Below are positions 29,350 to 56,303 of a DNA stretch of 64,000 nucleotides, in pieces. The stretch is from Desulfobacteraceae bacterium (lineage in GTDB: Bacteria > Desulfobacterota > Desulfobacteria > Desulfobacterales > Desulfococcaceae): positions 1 to 64,000 of the forward strand of contig JAABRU010000012.1 in the NCBI GenBank assembly GCA_011390755.1. Direction: 5' to 3'. Position 1 is the first letter of the stretch, and the number at the start of each line of letters is the position of its first letter. A program made the translations under genes and the position numbers. The notes under the pieces are model-generated. The model searched no databases and was not told the DNA's origin. It worked only from the letters and a program-made list of their open reading frames with translations.

Positions 29350-29548
29350 AAAGCCCTGAAAGGGCGGATTGCTATAGCCCAGGGTGAAGCCCTGGGAAGA
29401 CGGTCAATAATACAGCTAAGCCCTGAAGGGGCGTATTTTTCTTTTAAATTTCAATTTCAAATCCGCCCTTTCAGGGCTTACAATTCTGCACATTCTCTTA
29501 TTCCAGGGGCTTCACCCCTGGCTTTATCAATCCGCCCCTTCGGGGCTA
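29350..29548. repeat. AAAGCCCTGAAAGGGC inverted-repeat element, copy 1
   Basis: About 200 bp starting AAAGCCCTGAAAGGGCGGAT. Two facing halves are built from CCCAGGGTGAAGCCCTGGG and GCCCTGAAGGGGCG hairpins, the right end being the inverse of the left. Other copies are at 48452-48658, 52299-52438 (shorter) and 56098-56303. Short frames reading SPEGAY and RPFRAYN appear in them but are by-products of the repeat. Confidence 0.75.
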
Positions 29549-29641: not shown

Positions 29642-32600
29642 TCACTGCCCGCTGATCTCCCCCAGCAGCCAGATCACCTCTTCCAGTCCCACAGTCCCGT
29701 CTCCGTTCACGTCGGCTTCGGATTCACTGTAATCTGAGCGGATATCCCCGGCTTCCCCGGCCAGCACCTGCAGACCGCTGATAACATCTTTCAGATCGGC
29801 TTTCCGGTCATTGTTCAGATCACCTTTTACATCCTCACCGAGTCCGCCCCCTTCCGGTATCAGTTCAATGGTAAAAAACTGTGTGCTGTCATCCCCTCTG
29901 ATCTCTAAGGAAGTCTCGGTTCTCATATTCTCAATGATAACGGATCCGGCTCCGTCATATCCTTCCCGGATCTGATAGGTCCCTTTGGGATCCAGTTCTT
30001 CCGGATTCCAGGTGATGGTGGAAGATCGGGGAACCGGCGGGGGCAGTGTGCCGTGGGGATTGATGCCCAGCACCCATTGATATTTGTCTGCGCCGCCTTT
30101 GCGGATCAGTTTTCCATAGGGACCTTTCCAGTCTTCGGCGGAAATAATATCCCATAAATCCGCTTTTACGGAATATTCCGGCGGAACCGGGGGAGCGGCT
30201 TTGGTGATGTCCCGACTGCTGACCCCGATAACGATTTTGTAACTGTTGACCAGAATATTATTTTCCCCGCTCAGTTGCCATTCGGAATAACTCACCCCGT
30301 CCGCGATTTCACTGGCCGCATGGATTTCAGCCTGCCAGGAATCGGCAAATTCATCTTTGAAAACAGCCGTAATATTCATATCCTGCGTCATCTCCACCTG
30401 AACCGGATTTTCCGAACCTGCAAGATCGCCGCCCCAGCTTCTGAATTCTTCCGCAGGCAGGGCTTCCAGCAGAACCGGGGTTCCGCTTTCATAAGTATAA
30501 TATCCGGGATACTGGGGGCAGAGAACCTGGTTGACTTTCACATCCCCTTCCCCGGTTCTGGACAGAACCAGGCGGAAATCCGTGGAGCCTTTTCCGCTCA
30601 GGGGAACTTCCATGGACGGAGTATCGGGATCATCGGAAAGAACAGTCAGCACTGCTTTTTTCTGCCCGATGGATGTGGGAGTGAAATTCAGTTTGACCGT
30701 ACAGGTTTCATAATATCCCAGAGTCTTTCCGGAACATCCGTCATTTTCAATGCCGAAATCCTGCGGATTTTCCCCGCCCAGAGACACAGCAGAGATATTC
30801 AGCAGACGGGTTCCGGTATTAAGTACGGTAAACTGGCCGAAAGCCATGAGGGCAGAGTATGCGTTGAGTCGCCCTCCGCTGAAGGTGAGTCCCATAAGAG
30901 AGGGAATCGGATCCACCGTGGAAATAATGCTTTGCCGGATATTGGCAGGGGAAATATCCGGATACAGGGAGCGGATCAGACTGACCACACCGGAAACATG
31001 GGGAGTGGCCATGGATGTGCCGTTGTAGGATGCATATGCATTGCCGGGCACTGTGCTGTATATGGCTGCACCGGGCGCAGCCAGGTCAACAGTGGTAAAA
31101 CCGTAATTGGAAAAAAATGCAAGCAGGTCATTATGGTCTGTGGCCGCAACGGAAATGACATTATCCGCATCATAACCTGAGGGATAATGGGGAACCGCAT
31201 CATTGTTCTGTCCGTAATCATTGCCTGCGGCAGCCACAATCACATGCCCGGCCGCACTCGCAGCCAGAACGGCCTGGTGCAGCGCATCGGAATAACCGCC
31301 CCCGCCCCAACTGTTGTTGCTGATTTTCACACCCATTTTCACCGCGTATTCCAGGGCTTTTATGGCATCGGTGGTGGTCCCCACATTATTTTTGTTGATA
31401 AATTTAAGGGCCATGATTTTTGCCGTGGGATTGACTCCGACTATACCGGTTCCGTTGTTCATCACGGCTGCAATGGTTCCCGCACAGTGGGTTCCGTGGC
31501 CGTGATCGTCAAAGGGATTTCCGCTATCATTGGTGAAATTGTATCCGTGAATATCGTCAATATATCCGTTTCCGTCATCATCCACACCGTTTCCGGGAAT
31601 TTCTCCCGGATTAACCCACATATTCGCAGCCAGATCCGGATGGGTATAATCCACACCAGTATCAATCACAGCCACCACAGTTTCCTGATTGCCGGTCAGC
31701 AGTTCCCAGGCTTCGGGCGCGTCAATATCCGCATCCTCCTTTCCTCCGGTCTGGGCGGTGTTGTTCAGTCCCCAGAGCTGGGCAAAAGAGGCATCATCGG
31801 GCAGGGTGCCGACCAGATTGAGTTTGTAATTGGGTTCAATATATTCCAGGGCCGGGTTGTCCCAGAAACGGAACAGGGCTTCTTTGACCGTAGTTCCGGA
31901 CATCTCCCACAACTGTGCGCCGATACTGCTGTACTGTTCCACCACATTGGCATTGAGTTCGTTGAGAATCACATTTTCATCCCCGGCCCGGCGGTTGGCA
32001 TTCATTTTGATAATCACCTGACTTTCAATATAATCAGAACTCAGTTGAATGATGGGATTCGTCTCTCTTGGGACAATTCTTTTTTTTTTAGCGGAACGTG
32101 CCTCCGGCGGATTCACCTGCCGTGTGCCGAAATCATGTGCCGGGGGTTTTACGGAAATATCCGCGGGAACCGCGGCCTGCTGCACGATTTCCAGTTGTGC
32201 GGGACTGCCGGCCGCACCTTCGGCAGCAATGATGACATATCCCTTTCTTTCTTCCCCTGCGTTGGCTGCAATTTCCACAGCAATACTGCCCCCGTTGGTT
32301 CCGGATTTTTCACCGGAAACAGAAAGCCAGTCTGCATAAGCCGGAGCTACCGAAGCCTGCCATTCCATGACCCCGGAACCGGTATTGGAAATATCAAAAT
32401 TCACTGTGCCGGAAAAAGGGCCGGTGGTACTGCCTCCGGGACTGACTTTGAGATGCCGGGAAGAATTCAGTAAAATATTATGCACTTTCTCTTCCTGTAC
32501 CTGCAATGTTACTTCCGCAGTATGGTTTTCATATCCTTCCAGTGAGGCATTCAGGGTTTTGGCCATCGTGCAGACGGTCATGCGGTAATTTCCGTTGGTA

Positions 32601-33142
32601 TCACTCAAAGCCGAATCTCCTTCATCTGTCCATAATTTTGCAGAACCCAGCGGACTTCCGGAAAGCGCGTCCGTAACCGTTCCTGTATAGGTACCGGTCA
32701 TACAGCTGTTGGCCCGGTACACATTCAGGATATAATTTGTGTTTTCCCCGATGCTGCTCGCGGGATAGGGAGCGATTTTCACATAATAAATGCCGTCCGC
32801 GGGGCAGGCCCAGTCCAAAAACTCCCCTTCACCGGCCAGGGCATCGTCTTTTGTCTTCAGCAGCGTGAGACCGTCTGTATCGTAGAGTTCAATCACCGCA
32901 TCACAGTCCGGTCCCGGATAACTGACCTTTACGGTATAGGTCTGACCCGAAAGGGCATAAAAGCGTTTCCAGTCCGCATCTGTCACGGAATGAAAATTAT
33001 GGGATTCTGACAGCCCCCCGAGGACAATAAGTCCGGACTGGGAAACCGCATCATCCGGTTCATAAGTATCGGGCGCGCACAGGGCCGGAATCGGGTACAG
33101 GGCCAAACAGACCAGAAATAAAACCAGCATTGCTTTTTTCAT
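29642..33142 (-). CDS. Secreted subtilisin-family (S8) serine protease with dockerin-like tail
   Basis: An 1166-residue exported protease. Order: signal peptide (1-22), a PPC-like domain (about 25-140), a carboxypeptidase-regulatory-like domain, a BACON-like domain, a propeptide-like region, then the S8 catalytic domain (about 460-770). The triad is intact: AVIDTGVDYTHPDL (Asp), DDHGHGTHCAGT (His) and GTSMATPHVSGV (Ser). Beyond it lie an Ig-like domain, an InlB-type repeat and a dockerin-like tail (DLNNDRKADLKDV, DVNGDGTVGLEEV, ending LLGEISGQ). It is the only array member without a C13-type domain, and it could process the others. Confidence 0.88.
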   Translation of the reverse strand: MKKAMLVLFLVCLALYPIPALCAPDTYEPDDAVSQSGLIVLGGLSESHNFHSVTDADWKRFYALSGQTYTVKVSYPGPDCDAVIELYDTDGLTLLKTKDDALAGEGEFLDWACPADGIYYVKIAPYPASSIGENTNYILNVYRANSCMTGTYTGTVTDALSGSPLGSAKLWTDEGDSALSDTNGNYRMTVCTMAKTLNASLEGYENHTAEVTLQVQEEKVHNILLNSSRHLKVSPGGSTTGPFSGTVNFDISNTGSGVMEWQASVAPAYADWLSVSGEKSGTNGGSIAVEIAANAGEERKGYVIIAAEGAAGSPAQLEIVQQAAVPADISVKPPAHDFGTRQVNPPEARSAKKKRIVPRETNPIIQLSSDYIESQVIIKMNANRRAGDENVILNELNANVVEQYSSIGAQLWEMSGTTVKEALFRFWDNPALEYIEPNYKLNLVGTLPDDASFAQLWGLNNTAQTGGKEDADIDAPEAWELLTGNQETVVAVIDTGVDYTHPDLAANMWVNPGEIPGNGVDDDGNGYIDDIHGYNFTNDSGNPFDDHGHGTHCAGTIAAVMNNGTGIVGVNPTAKIMALKFINKNNVGTTTDAIKALEYAVKMGVKISNNSWGGGGYSDALHQAVLAASAAGHVIVAAAGNDYGQNNDAVPHYPSGYDADNVISVAATDHNDLLAFFSNYGFTTVDLAAPGAAIYSTVPGNAYASYNGTSMATPHVSGVVSLIRSLYPDISPANIRQSIISTVDPIPSLMGLTFSGGRLNAYSALMAFGQFTVLNTGTRLLNISAVSLGGENPQDFGIENDGCSGKTLGYYETCTVKLNFTPTSIGQKKAVLTVLSDDPDTPSMEVPLSGKGSTDFRLVLSRTGEGDVKVNQVLCPQYPGYYTYESGTPVLLEALPAEEFRSWGGDLAGSENPVQVEMTQDMNITAVFKDEFADSWQAEIHAASEIADGVSYSEWQLSGENNILVNSYKIVIGVSSRDITKAAPPVPPEYSVKADLWDIISAEDWKGPYGKLIRKGGADKYQWVLGINPHGTLPPPVPRSSTITWNPEELDPKGTYQIREGYDGAGSVIIENMRTETSLEIRGDDSTQFFTIELIPEGGGLGEDVKGDLNNDRKADLKDVISGLQVLAGEAGDIRSDYSESEADVNGDGTVGLEEVIWLLGEISGQ

Positions 33143-41963: not shown

Positions 41964-42299
41964 ATGACTATGCCTCAGTTATCTTTATACAGTCATTCAA
42001 AACTTACAACCCGGTATCAGACAACAATCCCTCAGGTAGTGAGAGAAGTTCTTGGCTTGGAAAAACATGATAAAATATGCTATACAGTTCAGTCTGATGG
42101 GAAAGTGCTTATATCCCGTGAAGAAAAAGTTGAAAAAGACCCTGTCTTAGCTAATTTTTTAACTTTTTTGGCTAATGATATGATTCAAAATCCTCATAAT
42201 GTCAGAGAAACTGATTCTGACTTGCGAGATCGCATCCAATCACTTGTATCTGATGTTGATATTGATTTGGATAGTCCACTTTCCGAAGAGGACGAATAA
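41964..42299 (+). CDS. prlF: PrlF-like AbrB-fold antitoxin
   Basis: A 111-residue protein with an AbrB/SpoVT swapped-hairpin domain at the N-terminus (SKLTTRYQTTIPQVVREVLG, then DKICYTVQSDGKVLISR). A helical acidic tail follows that in PrlF/SohA wraps the YhaV toxin. Two in-frame ATGs are possible: CGGGAG is three bases before 41964 and nine before 41970, so 41970 may be the real start. It is followed after two bases by the toxin gene. The pair is visibly more AT-rich than its neighbours, which suggests transfer. Confidence 0.82.
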   Translation: MTMPQLSLYSHSKLTTRYQTTIPQVVREVLGLEKHDKICYTVQSDGKVLISREEKVEKDPVLANFLTFLANDMIQNPHNVRETDSDLRDRIQSLVSDVDIDLDSPLSEEDE

Positions 42300-42301
42300 T
42301 T

Positions 42302-42796
42302 TTGACAAAATCGAAACCATTGATCATAAACGGATGGACAATATTTGCCCATTCTTTGTTTTTAGACCAACTTGAAGAATTGATAAAACAGGTCGAATTT
42401 TTGCATAAGAAATATCCTTCCAATTACTCTAAAAAAAATGCTTCCAAACGACTGGCGGCAATTGCAAAATTAGTATTTGAAATTATCCCTCAAGATCCGA
42501 CACATCCAAAATACCGCCAGGGAAATACTCTGGGCGATAGTTATAAACATTGGTTTCGGGCAAAATTTTTTCAACAATATCGTCTTTTCTTTCGCTATCA
42601 CTTAGAAAGCAGGATAATTGTTTTTGCCTGGGTAAACGATGAAGATACTAAACGCTCGTAGATCGGACAAAAAGACGCTTACCAAATTTTTAAGAAAATG
42701 CTTAACAATGGGAATCCGCCAAATGACTGGGATGAATTATTCAAACAGGCAAAATTGGAAATGAAGCGTCTTAAAAAAGCAGTTACCAAAATTTAA
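42302..42796 (+). pseudogene. yhaV: YhaV-like ribonuclease toxin with in-frame TAG
   Basis: The frame starts at TTG 42302 and shows YhaV features: NGWTIFAHSLFLDQLEELIK at the start, RYRQG-like PKYRQGNTLG, and HWFRAKFFQQYRLFFRYH near residue 90. It meets TAG at 42659-42661 after AWVNDEDTKRS. The same frame then continues with IGQKDAYQIFKKMLNNGNPP and NDWDELFKQA to TAA at 42794-42796, which is the normal YhaV C-terminus. Full length would be about 164 residues, close to the family's 154. Either the toxin is inactivated by one nonsense change, or a truncated form of 119 residues is made. Confidence 0.78.
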
Positions 42797-43043: not shown

Positions 43044-46000
43044 TTATTTATCGCTGACCTTCCGCAGAATATACACGGCTTCCTCCACCCCGATTTTCCC
43101 GTCTCTGTTCACATCCGCAGCAGTATTCACATTTCCTGCATTTATTCCGCACGCGGTTTTCAGAGCCAGAATGGCATCGGCCAGATCCACTGTTTCATCT
43201 CCGTTCACATTTCCCGGAGCCGGGGGATCAGCACCGTTTTCCACTGACAGCCGGATTTCCTGACTGACGGTATTGCCGCCGGTGTCCTGCACAAAAAAGG
43301 TGAGGATATAATCTCCGTTGTAGGGAAAGTTATAGTTTCCCTCAAACCTGTTGTCATTATCCGGATCACTCAGTTCCGCCCGGTCAAAACTGTAAAGCGG
43401 GGTCTGGAAATCACCGGCATTTTCAAGGGTTTCAAATCCGGGGGGAATAATGCTCACCCATGCGCTTTCCAGCCCTTCCGCGTCTGCCCCTTCCACAAAA
43501 AGGGGATGATTTCCGGCATTGATAATCTGATTCGGGGTCAGGGAAATGATTTCCGGCAGAATATCACCCACCACAAATGTGCCGCCGATGTAAAAATCCG
43601 CGGCCGCCAGTTCATTTCTGATCTGGGGTTCCTGTTTTTTGAACAGGCGGTAGTTCCCCATTTCTTTCCGGGCTTTGAAAAAGCAGTTTCTCAGACTGTC
43701 GCCCTGTGCCACCTGATCGAAGAAAAAGCGGGAAAAGGACTGGATACCGTCCTGGTCGTAATTGGCAACCTCGGTATTGCTGGAACTGATGAGAATCCGC
43801 TGCTGCTCACCCGTGGGGAGAAGTTTTTCAATAAAGGTTCCGGAATGGCAGGCTTCCGCAATGATGACAATTTTGCACCCGGTGGCAGTCTGGAGGGCAT
43901 CCAGCCAGATGTCCAAATCCTGGGCTTTGAGATATTGGCCCGCGTTGATTTTAAACTGCCCCACCCCGCCGTGATCTGCCAGGTAGAGAATCAGGGGACG
44001 GTTTGCGCCCACCAGCGGCTCCTGTCCGGGCCGGTACAGATTCTCCAGGTAATTTTGCAGAATGCCGACCGTGGGGGAATGCTCATCCACGAAAATATCA
44101 TCTGTGCCGTTGCCGTCCAAATCATAGTTGTGGGTGAAATCACTGATATAGTAAATCTGATCGTGATCAAACCGGCGTTTCTGCAATATCTGGTAAAAAC
44201 GGTTGGCCAGAAATTCCGTGGTTTTCCAGAGAGTGTTCTGATCCATTCCGCCACCGGCCAGAATCAGGGCATGTCCCACTTCTATGCCCGGATACAGCAC
44301 CAGGGGCAGGCTGACGGAACCCGTATAATCCTCATTTCCGCCCCATGCGGCCTTGAATTTCCAGATGCCCGGCAGGTTTTCCTCCAACGTATAGTTAAAA
44401 GAGCGTTTTCCTCCGGACTGTGTGAAAAGCCCTTCCACGGTTTCCGGCACATTCAGGCCCGGTTTCAGGATTTCAAAATACAGTGGCTGACCTTCATAGG
44501 GCGGGGATAGTTCAATGCCGATGCTGACCGTATCCCCCGGTTCAGGCGGATTTTCATCAGATGTCGTGACACGGATTTCCGATTTTCCCCGCGTGACAGT
44601 AAAGGCCGAAATTTCGCTTTCACATGCGGCAACATGGGCATTGCCCACCCATGATGCTCTGACTTCATATTCCCCTGTTTCCTGCGGCAGGTAAGAAAAG
44701 CGGAATGCGCTGTTTTCCCCGATGACTGAGGGAGATGATGTCCACTGCAACTCACCGGATTTTCTGACCTGAACTGTCACAGCCGTTCCCGAAACCTGCC
44801 AGGGAAGCAGTTGCCCGTATATTTCGGCTTTTTCCCCCAGCCGGTAAGATTCTTTCTGCGGCAAAGCCGTAATCCGACCCTGACCGGTCGCTATGTTCAC
44901 AATCTTCAGACTGCACTGGCTATGATGACTGCGGTTTTCACTGATGCCGTTGATGGTAAAAGTATAATCTCCGGGAGCCGCTGAATAGGGAATATCCAGC
45001 CGGAGTGCGGCCATGCCTGTGGGTTTTACCGGGTTGCCGGTAAATGTTTTGGTAATACCCGAAGGCAGTGAACCGGTGGCCGAAAGGGACACCGCTTCTG
45101 CAAAACGGTCTTCCCCGATTACGGTAATATGAAATACAATGGAATCCCCCGCGGCCACCATGCCGGATGTTTCCATGAGTTCCAGGCGGAAATCCCCGCC
45201 AATGAGGGCCGCGGGAACGGCGCTGACCGGAGCAGTGGCATCGCTTTCCGATCCGCTGCTGACTGCTGTGATTTTATACCAGTATGCAAGACCGTTGATA
45301 AGATTTTCATCTGTGAATACCTGATACCATTTCCTCTCATTCTCGTTATAATCGGGATTGTAATGGGGATCGGATGTGAGCTGTACATAAAAACCGTTTT
45401 CCGCATCACTGCGGTAAATATGATAACCTTCTGTTTCCGGTGATAAAGGTTCATCCCATTGCAGGGTGACAGCGTGACTGCCGGATGTGGCTCTAAGTCC
45501 CGCGGGCGTATTCGGACCGGGGACGGATTCCAGGGTGATGCTGTCTGTAATACTGATGCTTGTCCAGTTTCCCAGCATATCGGAAAAACGGGCATATACA
45601 GTCTTGATCCCCAAACCGGATGACAGTGTCCAGTCTGCGGATGCGGCATAGGGGACAGGAGAAGACCAGTTGACATTGTCATTGGAAAACGCCATCTGTG
45701 AAAGACCGGAACCGGAATCGGCTGCGGAAATGCTGAGGATAACGCTTTGGGATGAGGTGGAGGCCGCATTGCTGTTGACAGTGATGCTGCCGGTGGGGGG
45801 AAGATTGTCTATTTTGAAGGGGCCGACATGCAGGGTGGGGCTGGTGTTGCCCGCGTTGTCAACGGTGCGGATGTGGAAGTAATGGTTGGCTCCGTCCGAA
45901 AGTGGGGAACCGGTAATCTGATTCAGGTCTGTTTCAACAATGTTGTCAGGATCGGTGATGGGGGATGTGTCGAAAATACAGGAATATCCGGCCACACCGG

Positions 46001-48047
46001 AGCCGCTGTCTTCACCGGGGTTCCAAGCCACTCCTACGGTATTGTCTTTGGCCCAGGTATTTACGGGGGGATAGGCGGCCGCGAAGATGGGGGCAGTCGG
46101 GGGAGTGGTATCGTTAGATATTTCAATATAAACATTGGATGCGGTATATGCATAACTGCCGAACTGTATATCATCTGTAACATCATTGTAAGCGATCCGG
46201 CAGTATCCGTTTTCTCCCCAACCCTTTCCCCAACTGTTTTTTACTGTAAAATACTGTCCATCATCATTATAAGCCACGACCAGCAGACTGAGATATCCGC
46301 TATATGAACCGTCTCCATTATAATCGTAAATTCCGCCGGAATAAGAAGTAAAAGAATTATCACTCGGCACTTTGATTGTTGCAATGACCGGTCCGGTCTG
46401 TAAAAGTGTTTTTAAATCGTAAACGGTCGTATCACCGGCTACGCCCCAATGATAAGTAAATTGTGTGATTTTTTGCACAAATGACGGGGAAGCACATTTG
46501 TCCTCACAGTTTCCGTCTGCTGAAATATAGGGATAGCAGGATTCCGGGGGGATACCTTCATCCCGGATATATGTTAATGCCTGGCTGATTGAACCGCCTT
46601 CACAGTCAGATGTGGGAATACATGATATAATCGTCTGTTCGGAAAGATCCTGCTCGACTCCGAGTCCGACCTGATTTCCAAGATTTTCCACCAAAGCCGT
46701 TGCCGAAAAAGCCCAGCAGCCCCCACAGGTCATCAGGCTTTTTACCGGGCTGTCATATTGGCTCCAATCCACTGAGGAAGGCATGGATTGTCTTGATTTC
46801 AGACTGATTTCAGGATCACCGTAAAGACTCAGACCTGTAAAATTCATCCAGTTATATTCACTTGCCGGTATCAGCGTTTTTTTCATTTCCTGCATGGCAT
46901 AACCGACGGTCATTTCATCACCGATCAGTCTGTTGGCATATTCATAAATAATCCCCATTGAAGTTGCGCTTCCTGAAAAATCGGTTTGCCCCGGAGAATA
47001 CCATCCTTCACGGGTTTGCCCTATAGTAGCAACTGCTCCGTTTTTCAGAAGAGAATAGGACAGGTTATTATTGGTTTCAGGATGTGCAGATGAAGTGGCT
47101 CCTAAAAAGAAAATTCCCGGATGATTGTTATTCAGAAGCAACGTGCTGGAAGTATCAATAATATCAGATACCACAGTGGTATATCCATGACTCATTGTAA
47201 ATACGACTCCAAAGTCAGAACTATCCAGAATACCCGTAAAATTATTTATGCTGCAAGGTACCGTTTCAGGAGCAGGGATAAGACTGTAGTTGTCAGCATA
47301 CATCCGGTGATAATTCAATCCATTAGGAACAACAATATCATTTTTGATGGATTCTCCCAGATGATAACCGGGAGTACTTTCGTTCAAAGAATTCATTGCC
47401 AGCAGTATCTTATTACGCCAGTCAATATTCGTTTCATTTGAGAAGGATATTATTTTGGCAAAGATATTATCCAAATCCTCTATCACACCGTAATAAGGAA
47501 TTCTCCCTACAACCACGTCGTAATTCCTGTCCACACCGCCTTCTCCGAAATCATCTCCCCATTCCCCATATTTTCCGTCATTATCCAAATCCCAGTTTCC
47601 CGTAAGATCAGCATAATAATCATCCGATGGGGTTTCTTTATATTCAGTGATAGAAGTTGCATTGTTTCTTGGCCAAAGCATTTTCATGGGAACATTTCCA
47701 GTATCCGGATGCGGATTGCCAACGAGCAAGACATATTCTATGTTATACGTCAGATAATTGTTTTTTAACCAGTTGCGGATATTTTCAGCCGCCGTGTCAC
47801 CTGTTCCGCCTCCCCATGAGTTTTCTGTAACAACATAAACATTAAAACCCCGGATCATTTTATCTGTTACAAATGCTGAAAGATTGACAGAATTGGAAAA
47901 AATTGAACTTGTGGTAATAATAGCATAGGATTTAGTCGATGAACCTCTTGGTGATAATGCTTTCTGGTCGGCATCCGGGATAGTCCCTCCGAAAGCCAAA
48001 GAACAGGACAACATAATGAAACTGACAAAAATAACTGTGATTCTCAT
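43044..48047 (-). CDS. Giant secreted protein: C25-like, papain-like and C13-type peptidase domains with dockerin-like tail
   Basis: About 1667 residues from ATG 48047 (GGAGG eight bases upstream; MRITVIFVSFIMLSCSLAFG is a signal peptide). Order: gingipain (C25)-like domain (about 45-450, FTMSHGY, ending LYGDPEI), papain (C1) domain (about 455-680, CGGCWAFSA, VKNSWGKGWGENGY), Ig units, FN3, further Ig domains, C13-type domain (about 1330-1560, YLADHGG and AEACHSGTF), dockerin-like tail (DVNRDGKIGVEEA, ending LRKVSDK). In the C25-like domain the expected cysteine position reads GATSSAHPE. In the papain domain the expected histidine position reads GYLSLLVVAY and the oxyanion glutamine is leucine. 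Only the third domain looks catalytically complete. Confidence 0.83.
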   Translation of the reverse strand: MRITVIFVSFIMLSCSLAFGGTIPDADQKALSPRGSSTKSYAIITTSSIFSNSVNLSAFVTDKMIRGFNVYVVTENSWGGGTGDTAAENIRNWLKNNYLTYNIEYVLLVGNPHPDTGNVPMKMLWPRNNATSITEYKETPSDDYYADLTGNWDLDNDGKYGEWGDDFGEGGVDRNYDVVVGRIPYYGVIEDLDNIFAKIISFSNETNIDWRNKILLAMNSLNESTPGYHLGESIKNDIVVPNGLNYHRMYADNYSLIPAPETVPCSINNFTGILDSSDFGVVFTMSHGYTTVVSDIIDTSSTLLLNNNHPGIFFLGATSSAHPETNNNLSYSLLKNGAVATIGQTREGWYSPGQTDFSGSATSMGIIYEYANRLIGDEMTVGYAMQEMKKTLIPASEYNWMNFTGLSLYGDPEISLKSRQSMPSSVDWSQYDSPVKSLMTCGGCWAFSATALVENLGNQVGLGVEQDLSEQTIISCIPTSDCEGGSISQALTYIRDEGIPPESCYPYISADGNCEDKCASPSFVQKITQFTYHWGVAGDTTVYDLKTLLQTGPVIATIKVPSDNSFTSYSGGIYDYNGDGSYSGYLSLLVVAYNDDGQYFTVKNSWGKGWGENGYCRIAYNDVTDDIQFGSYAYTASNVYIEISNDTTPPTAPIFAAAYPPVNTWAKDNTVGVAWNPGEDSGSGVAGYSCIFDTSPITDPDNIVETDLNQITGSPLSDGANHYFHIRTVDNAGNTSPTLHVGPFKIDNLPPTGSITVNSNAASTSSQSVILSISAADSGSGLSQMAFSNDNVNWSSPVPYAASADWTLSSGLGIKTVYARFSDMLGNWTSISITDSITLESVPGPNTPAGLRATSGSHAVTLQWDEPLSPETEGYHIYRSDAENGFYVQLTSDPHYNPDYNENERKWYQVFTDENLINGLAYWYKITAVSSGSESDATAPVSAVPAALIGGDFRLELMETSGMVAAGDSIVFHITVIGEDRFAEAVSLSATGSLPSGITKTFTGNPVKPTGMAALRLDIPYSAAPGDYTFTINGISENRSHHSQCSLKIVNIATGQGRITALPQKESYRLGEKAEIYGQLLPWQVSGTAVTVQVRKSGELQWTSSPSVIGENSAFRFSYLPQETGEYEVRASWVGNAHVAACESEISAFTVTRGKSEIRVTTSDENPPEPGDTVSIGIELSPPYEGQPLYFEILKPGLNVPETVEGLFTQSGGKRSFNYTLEENLPGIWKFKAAWGGNEDYTGSVSLPLVLYPGIEVGHALILAGGGMDQNTLWKTTEFLANRFYQILQKRRFDHDQIYYISDFTHNYDLDGNGTDDIFVDEHSPTVGILQNYLENLYRPGQEPLVGANRPLILYLADHGGVGQFKINAGQYLKAQDLDIWLDALQTATGCKIVIIAEACHSGTFIEKLLPTGEQQRILISSSNTEVANYDQDGIQSFSRFFFDQVAQGDSLRNCFFKARKEMGNYRLFKKQEPQIRNELAAADFYIGGTFVVGDILPEIISLTPNQIINAGNHPLFVEGADAEGLESAWVSIIPPGFETLENAGDFQTPLYSFDRAELSDPDNDNRFEGNYNFPYNGDYILTFFVQDTGGNTVSQEIRLSVENGADPPAPGNVNGDETVDLADAILALKTACGINAGNVNTAADVNRDGKIGVEEAVYILRKVSDK

Positions 48048-48451: not shown

Positions 48452-48658
48452 AAAGCCCTGAAAGGGCGTATTGGTACAGCCCGGGGTGAAGCCCTGGGAA
48501 ACAGGGACAAAAATATTGTAAGCCCTGAAGGGGCGTATTACCTTATTGTTTTTCAGATATATAATTTCCTAATCCGCCCTTTCAGGGCTTACAATTATAC
48601 ATAATCTCTTTACCCAGGGCTTCACCCTGGGCTTTATCAATACGCCCCTTTGGGGCTT
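48452..48658. repeat. AAAGCCCTGAAAGGGC inverted-repeat element, copy 2
   Basis: Near-identical to 29350-29548 in layout: AAAGCCCTGAAAGGGCGTAT at the left, CGCCCCTTTGGGGCTTA at the right, with CCCGGGGTGAAGCCCTGGG and CCCAGGGCTTCACCCTGGG facing each other inside. Confidence 0.75.
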
Positions 48659-56097: not shown

Positions 56098-56303
56098 AAA
56101 GCCCTGAAAGGGCGTATTGGTACAGCCCAGGGTGAAGCCCTGGGAAACAGGGAAAAAAATATTGTAAGCCCTGAAAGGGCGTATTACCTTTTATTTTTCA
56201 GATATATAATTTCCTAATCCGCCCTTTCAGGGCTTACAATTATACATAATCTCTTTACCCAGGGCTTCACCCTGGGCTATACCAATACGCCCCTTTGGGG
56301 CTT
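56098..56303. repeat. AAAGCCCTGAAAGGGC inverted-repeat element, copy 4
   Basis: Same ends and length as the copies at 29350 and 48452. Followed by a CCCGGTTCAGAC arm. Confidence 0.75.

Follow-up and report, generated by a model that had tools for sequence, protein, structure and literature searches.

We lean towards the view that the minus-strand gene 43044-48047 encodes an exported, legumain-type (C13) peptidase that is preceded by two pseudoproteases, one from family C25 and one from family C1 (papain), which would act in tandem as a binding or regulatory module. In both of these domains the scaffold is kept and exactly the catalytic residues are lost, which suggests that former enzymes have been co-opted for binding or regulation. 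Pseudoproteases are well known, but in none of the other genomes that we searched did we find two of them, belonging to different clans (CD and CA), in tandem before an intact third peptidase. Close active paralogues and relatives are available for comparison, so the conversion of a protease into a binding domain could be studied here.

The gene lies in a window of 64,000 nt (the whole stretch of DNA that was analysed) from a genome that is assembled into 379 contigs (6.9 Mb in total). The host may be a sulfate-reducing bacterium, to judge from a relative of the C1 domain (55% identity) that belongs to a Desulfobacterales MAG. The open frame has 1701 codons, from GTG 48149 to the end at 43044, and it runs for 5.1 kb with neither a stop nor a frameshift. 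The ATG at 48047, behind AAAGGAGG, is the likelier start. A signal-like N terminus is followed by the C25 domain, the C1 domain, Ig/fn3 linkers, the C13 domain, and lastly a tail that weakly resembles a dockerin (Table 1). An earlier sequence-only reading had described three stacked peptidase domains, and Pfam places all three. The protein is probably exported, as its sequence suggests.

Table 1. Features of the 43044-48047 gene (positions in the window)
Feature	Position	Strand	Basis and remarks
Whole coding sequence	43044..48047	-	Alternative start GTG 48149
Signal-peptide-like start MRITVIFVSFIMLSCSLAFGG	47985..48047	-	Sequence reading; C25 domain begins 18 residues later
Pseudo-C25 domain	46776..47930	-	Pfam and alignment; His kept, Cys to Thr
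Pseudo-C1 (papain) domain	46116..46775	-	Pfam and alignment; Gln to Leu, His to Leu, Cys and Asn kept
Ig-like and fn3 linker region	44277..46115	-	Pfam
C13/legumain-like peptidase domain	43575..44276	-	Pfam, alignment and model; His and Cys intact
Dockerin-like tail (double EF-hand-like repeat)	43092..43211	-	Pfam, below cut-off

By eye, the linker of the neighbouring C13 gene (38961-41822) is similar to the first part of this one. The dockerin-like tail scores 19.4 bits against a Pfam cut-off of 22.9; dockerins above the cut-off are found in two sibling C13 proteins (19979 and L113). Several dockerin-like tails occur in this genome, which also has nine cohesin-domain matches (contigs C1, C229, C34, and C209; five of them lie within a stretch of ~20 kb on contig C1).

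Catalytic residues and scaffolds of the C25 and C1 domains

The C25 domain matches the full profile of Peptidase_C25 (PF01364, 121.4 bits). In an alignment with 21 homologues, the catalytic histidine is kept (CAT, 47187-47189) and threonine occupies the cysteine column (ACT, 47094-47096), so the His-Cys dyad of family C25 is broken. This bears out the sequence-only reading, which saw MSHGY in a C25-like domain without its catalytic cysteine; the alignment corrects it slightly, in that the threonine of GATSSAHPE is the residue in the cysteine column. The domain's single cysteine (residue 226) is outside every active-site column. Across a survey of 26 distinct C25 domains, the cysteine is absent only from this protein and from L066, which has tyrosine. 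The closest relatives, L051 (62% identity) and L052 (58%), are homologous across the entire domain, but they carry the dyad, have other C-terminal domains, and begin with an N-terminal region of about 240-280 residues (in L052 it is recognised as a propeptide). A phmmer search of the C25 part against the PDB gave no match.

The C1 domain matches Peptidase_C1 (PF00112, 135.8 bits) and its best matches in the PDB are papain-like. When aligned with 35 homologues, it retains the catalytic cysteine (TGC, 46716-46718), the asparagine (AAC, 46236-46238), and, in its substrate cleft, the Gly-Gly pair. The oxyanion glutamine and the histidine of family C1A are both lost: the glutamine position has leucine (CTG, 46734-46736), and so does the histidine position (CTC, 46290-46292), although an alignment with one inserted residue would put tyrosine (TAT, 46293-46295) there instead. 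CGGCWAFSA, KNSWG, and the two leucines had all been picked out from the sequence, and the alignment agrees. The domain's only histidine (domain residue 109) is outside every active-site column. The two closest C1 paralogues within the same genome (L002 and L003) retain both the glutamine and the histidine. Among 57 distinct C1 domains that we surveyed, this is the only one to have lost the glutamine. Two others appear to be dead: L045, with aspartate for the cysteine and no histidine in the histidine column, and the partial L108, with serine for the cysteine. L105:2768-5260 (G028) has an independent, apparently dead C1 domain, with aspartate for the cysteine, that adjoins PKD repeats.

From the two alignments and the two surveys, in which almost all of the C1 and C25 homologues retain the catalytic residues, we infer that both domains are inactive, as had been suggested. 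A sequencing error at 46270-46310 is unlikely because most of the residues near the C1 histidine are replaced (the consensus GHAVLLVGY is YLSLLVVAY here, so the motif is altered at most positions other than the LLV core) and the C1 glutamine and the C25 cysteine are altered too, along with the residues around them. These changes also argue against a shifted alignment, and the active-site columns contain no spare histidine in C1 or cysteine in C25. The sequence-only reading had named an intact residue supplied from elsewhere in the domain as a way that it could be wrong, and the alignments showed none in the active-site columns.

The rest of each domain is well conserved. We considered columns that are conserved in at least 90% of the homologues, leaving out the 43044-48047 protein itself. 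Only 3 of 35 such columns are lost in C1 (Gln14, His161, and Gly168) and only 2 of 33 in C25 (Cys279 and Asn368). Were such columns to change at the level of the overall divergence, so few losses would be surprising (binomial P = 5e-6 for C1 and 3e-5 for C25; these are rough, as part of the divergence predates the inactivation). The tests of catalytic columns are post hoc, as they were made after the loss of catalytic residues had been noticed. Both domains are pseudoproteases in the sense of protease homologues that have lost catalytic residues and kept the scaffold.

In C25, the changes on this lineage cluster at residues 241-285, which surround the histidine and the cysteine (17 of 28 sites, versus 54 of 242 elsewhere; Fisher P = 5e-5). 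Variation also goes up in this stretch in the active sisters, but to a smaller extent. The same test for C1 was weak or suggestive (7 of 19 versus 18 of 105, P = 0.06). In FastTree trees, the tip branch for C25 is ~2.7 times as long as in the active sisters (0.51 versus 0.19), and the tip branch for C1 (0.51) is the same as for its active sister L062 (0.51). We read this as the loss of catalysis on a retained scaffold, with some relaxed constraint possible in C25. GC3 is lower in the N-terminal half of the gene, but we did not use base composition as a mark of a foreign module because the siblings and the C25 relatives are similarly low in GC3.

Propeptides are missing as well. Most C25 relatives have about 230-280 residues N-terminal to the domain, and Propeptide_C25 (PF08126) is recognised in L052, L015, L053, L054, L066, L100-L102, and L104. 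The 43044-48047 protein has no match to PF08126 and its open reading frame has no room for one. Where the frame of a close C1 relative extends upstream of the domain, it contains a conserved GLxIPxxVxxYW segment, which may be a propeptide; more distant relatives have other pre-regions. This segment is absent before the C1 domain of our protein. A tblastn search of the upstream DNA with the relatives' N termini found no propeptide remnant, so we rejected the idea that a propeptide was overlooked due to a wrong start or a frameshift. In L100-L102, C1 and C25 domains are joined in the opposite order, and in these proteins the two active sites are intact and the C25 propeptide is present. The joint loss of propeptides and catalysis in both domains is a testable mark of conversion to pseudoenzymes. 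The two losses need not coincide, as L066 (L066:1321-5406, from G078) has tyrosine for the cysteine yet keeps its propeptide; this C25 domain, which apparently died independently, is accompanied by an FGE-sulfatase domain.

The C13 domain and its siblings

The C-terminal domain scores above the Pfam cut-off for Peptidase_C13 (PF01650, 37.5 bits). Its histidine (43971-43973, in the motif DHG) and its cysteine (43848-43850, in EACHSG) are intact, and it is modelled with a mean pLDDT of 88.7 as a fold whose top matches are legumains. Homology, fold, and the His-Cys dyad all point to family C13, and this is apparently a working legumain-type protease, so the earlier description of this domain as intact holds up.

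We found 19 C13 proteins encoded in the genome, of which nine are within the window. A second peptidase family was not found by Pfam in any of the other 18. In 17 of the 18, the N-terminal slot contains a non-catalytic Pfam module, and the remaining one (38961) has what look by eye like propeller-like repeats. Most of these modules are beta-propellers (NHL, LVIVD, Reg_prop, or lactonase); Lcl_C and CHB_HEX_C also occur. The dead C25-C1 module sits in this slot.

The C13 dyad is kept in 18 of the genome's 22 C13 domains. The four domains without it are the single domain of L114:99-3245 (His to Pro) and the second domains of three tandem-C13 proteins, each of which combines an intact C13 domain with a dead one: L111:120-5084 (His to Thr and Cys to Gly), L110:1631-6613 (His to Glu and Cys to Asp), and L110:9427-14964 (His to Lys). 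The pairing of a live domain with a dead one in the same chain thus recurs in this genome.

Possible roles of the dead domains

We propose that a C25 domain and a papain-like domain came together as the N-terminal module, and that both would have lost catalysis and been retained as binding or regulatory pseudoenzymes. The dead clefts may bind a peptide, a protein, or some other ligand; the bound ligand might bring substrate to the C13 domain, or the dead part might control the C13 domain. The protein may also be tethered through its weak dockerin. What the sequence shows in favour of this proposal is that catalytic residues are replaced on scaffolds that are otherwise conserved, that the propeptides are missing, that the C13 dyad is intact, and that the module occupies the slot where siblings carry beta-propellers, Lcl_C, or similar domains. 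The sequence-only reading had expected that dead proteases would become binding or inhibitory modules; the kept columns, the absent propeptides, and the binding-type modules of the siblings are in line with this, and the binding itself is something that we infer. An AlphaFold model of the C25-C1 pair, from an alignment of only four rows, has a pLDDT of 31.

Against this proposal, the fusion is known only once. The fused C25-C1 order was absent from all of the other genomes searched (~780, from family, order, and phylum samples; the larger searches scored up to three candidates per genome), so no orthologue shows that the dead state is maintained. It was not found in a plasmid collection either, where there was one weak match to C1. 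The faster C25 branch also fits relaxed constraint.

A more ambitious version of the proposal, which we hold tentatively, is that two unrelated cysteine peptidases were fused, stripped of their propeptides and their catalysis, and now serve the C13 domain as a composite receptor or as a module that captures substrate. This would be one case of a broader tendency, in this genome, to join live and dead peptidase domains in one chain.

It seems rather unlikely that the dead part is instead a pro-region or an allosteric regulator of C13 in cis and not a substrate binder. All three of the tandem-C13 proteins in this genome pair an intact domain with a dead one, which would suit cis regulation, and the CspB-CspA fusion and CspC from C. 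difficile germination provide a precedent (PMC6199464, PMC6636752). However, the modules that precede the C13 domains of the siblings are unrelated, which means that such domains do not as a rule require a dedicated inhibitor, and ~610 linker residues separate the dead pair from the C13 domain.

We similarly doubt that both domains were recently inactivated and are slowly decaying passengers, under relaxed constraint, in a C13 protein that is still useful. Decay could account for the single known instance of the fusion, for the faster evolution of C25, and for the lower GC3 of the N-terminal half (though the siblings are likewise low). But the frame is open throughout, nearly all of the conserved scaffold columns are present, C1 evolves at the rate of its active sister, and the changes in C25 are focused at the active site. 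Residual activity by an altered mechanism, with threonine as the nucleophile in C25 or with a free cysteine and no histidine in C1, is very improbable: the C25 histidine and the C1 cysteine, asparagine, and cleft Gly-Gly are kept, but C1 has neither its general base nor the oxyanion glutamine, the active-site columns offer no alternative histidine or cysteine, and in none of the surveyed homologues is such a change conserved.

If our preferred reading as a binding or regulatory module is correct, then this protein would work on the same principle as known regulatory dead proteases, with two families that the open-licence papers we found do not describe together. CspB-CspA and CspC, from C. difficile and its relatives, include subtilisin-like pseudoproteases, and they likewise join an active protease to a dead regulating or sensing one in a single chain (PMC6199464, PMC6636752). 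There, both partners belong to family S8 and their role is in spore germination, whereas here unrelated dead C25 and C1 domains precede an intact C13. SERA5 from Plasmodium is a papain-like pseudoprotease with a demonstrated non-enzymatic role (PMC4671257, PMC5500368). Like our C1 domain, it retains the papain fold with a catalytic residue replaced, but SERA5 has serine for the catalytic cysteine, while our C1 domain keeps the cysteine, has lost the histidine and the glutamine, and has a putative role. Bacterial pseudo-orthocaspases (PMC6426788; substitutions are surveyed in PMC3501461) are, like our C25 domain, bacterial relatives of clan CD cysteine peptidases without the His-Cys dyad. They are caspase-like p20 domains, whereas our clan CD domain is a C25 that keeps the histidine and has threonine for the cysteine.

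Finally, we note some features of the surrounding region. All nine C13 genes of the window are on the same strand, at 16713-60837(-); their C-terminal parts resemble one another and their N-terminal modules are exchanged. Among them is an S8 subtilase gene (29642-33142) whose catalytic motifs are apparently intact. A PrlF-YhaV toxin-antitoxin pair lies on the opposite strand between two of the C13 genes (41964-42661(+)). There are four matches to the Acido-Lenti-1 RNA (RF01687) between C13 genes, at 29352-29396(-), 48454-48498(-), 56100-56144(-), and 56258-56302(+), and one of these is close upstream of the 43044-48047 gene.
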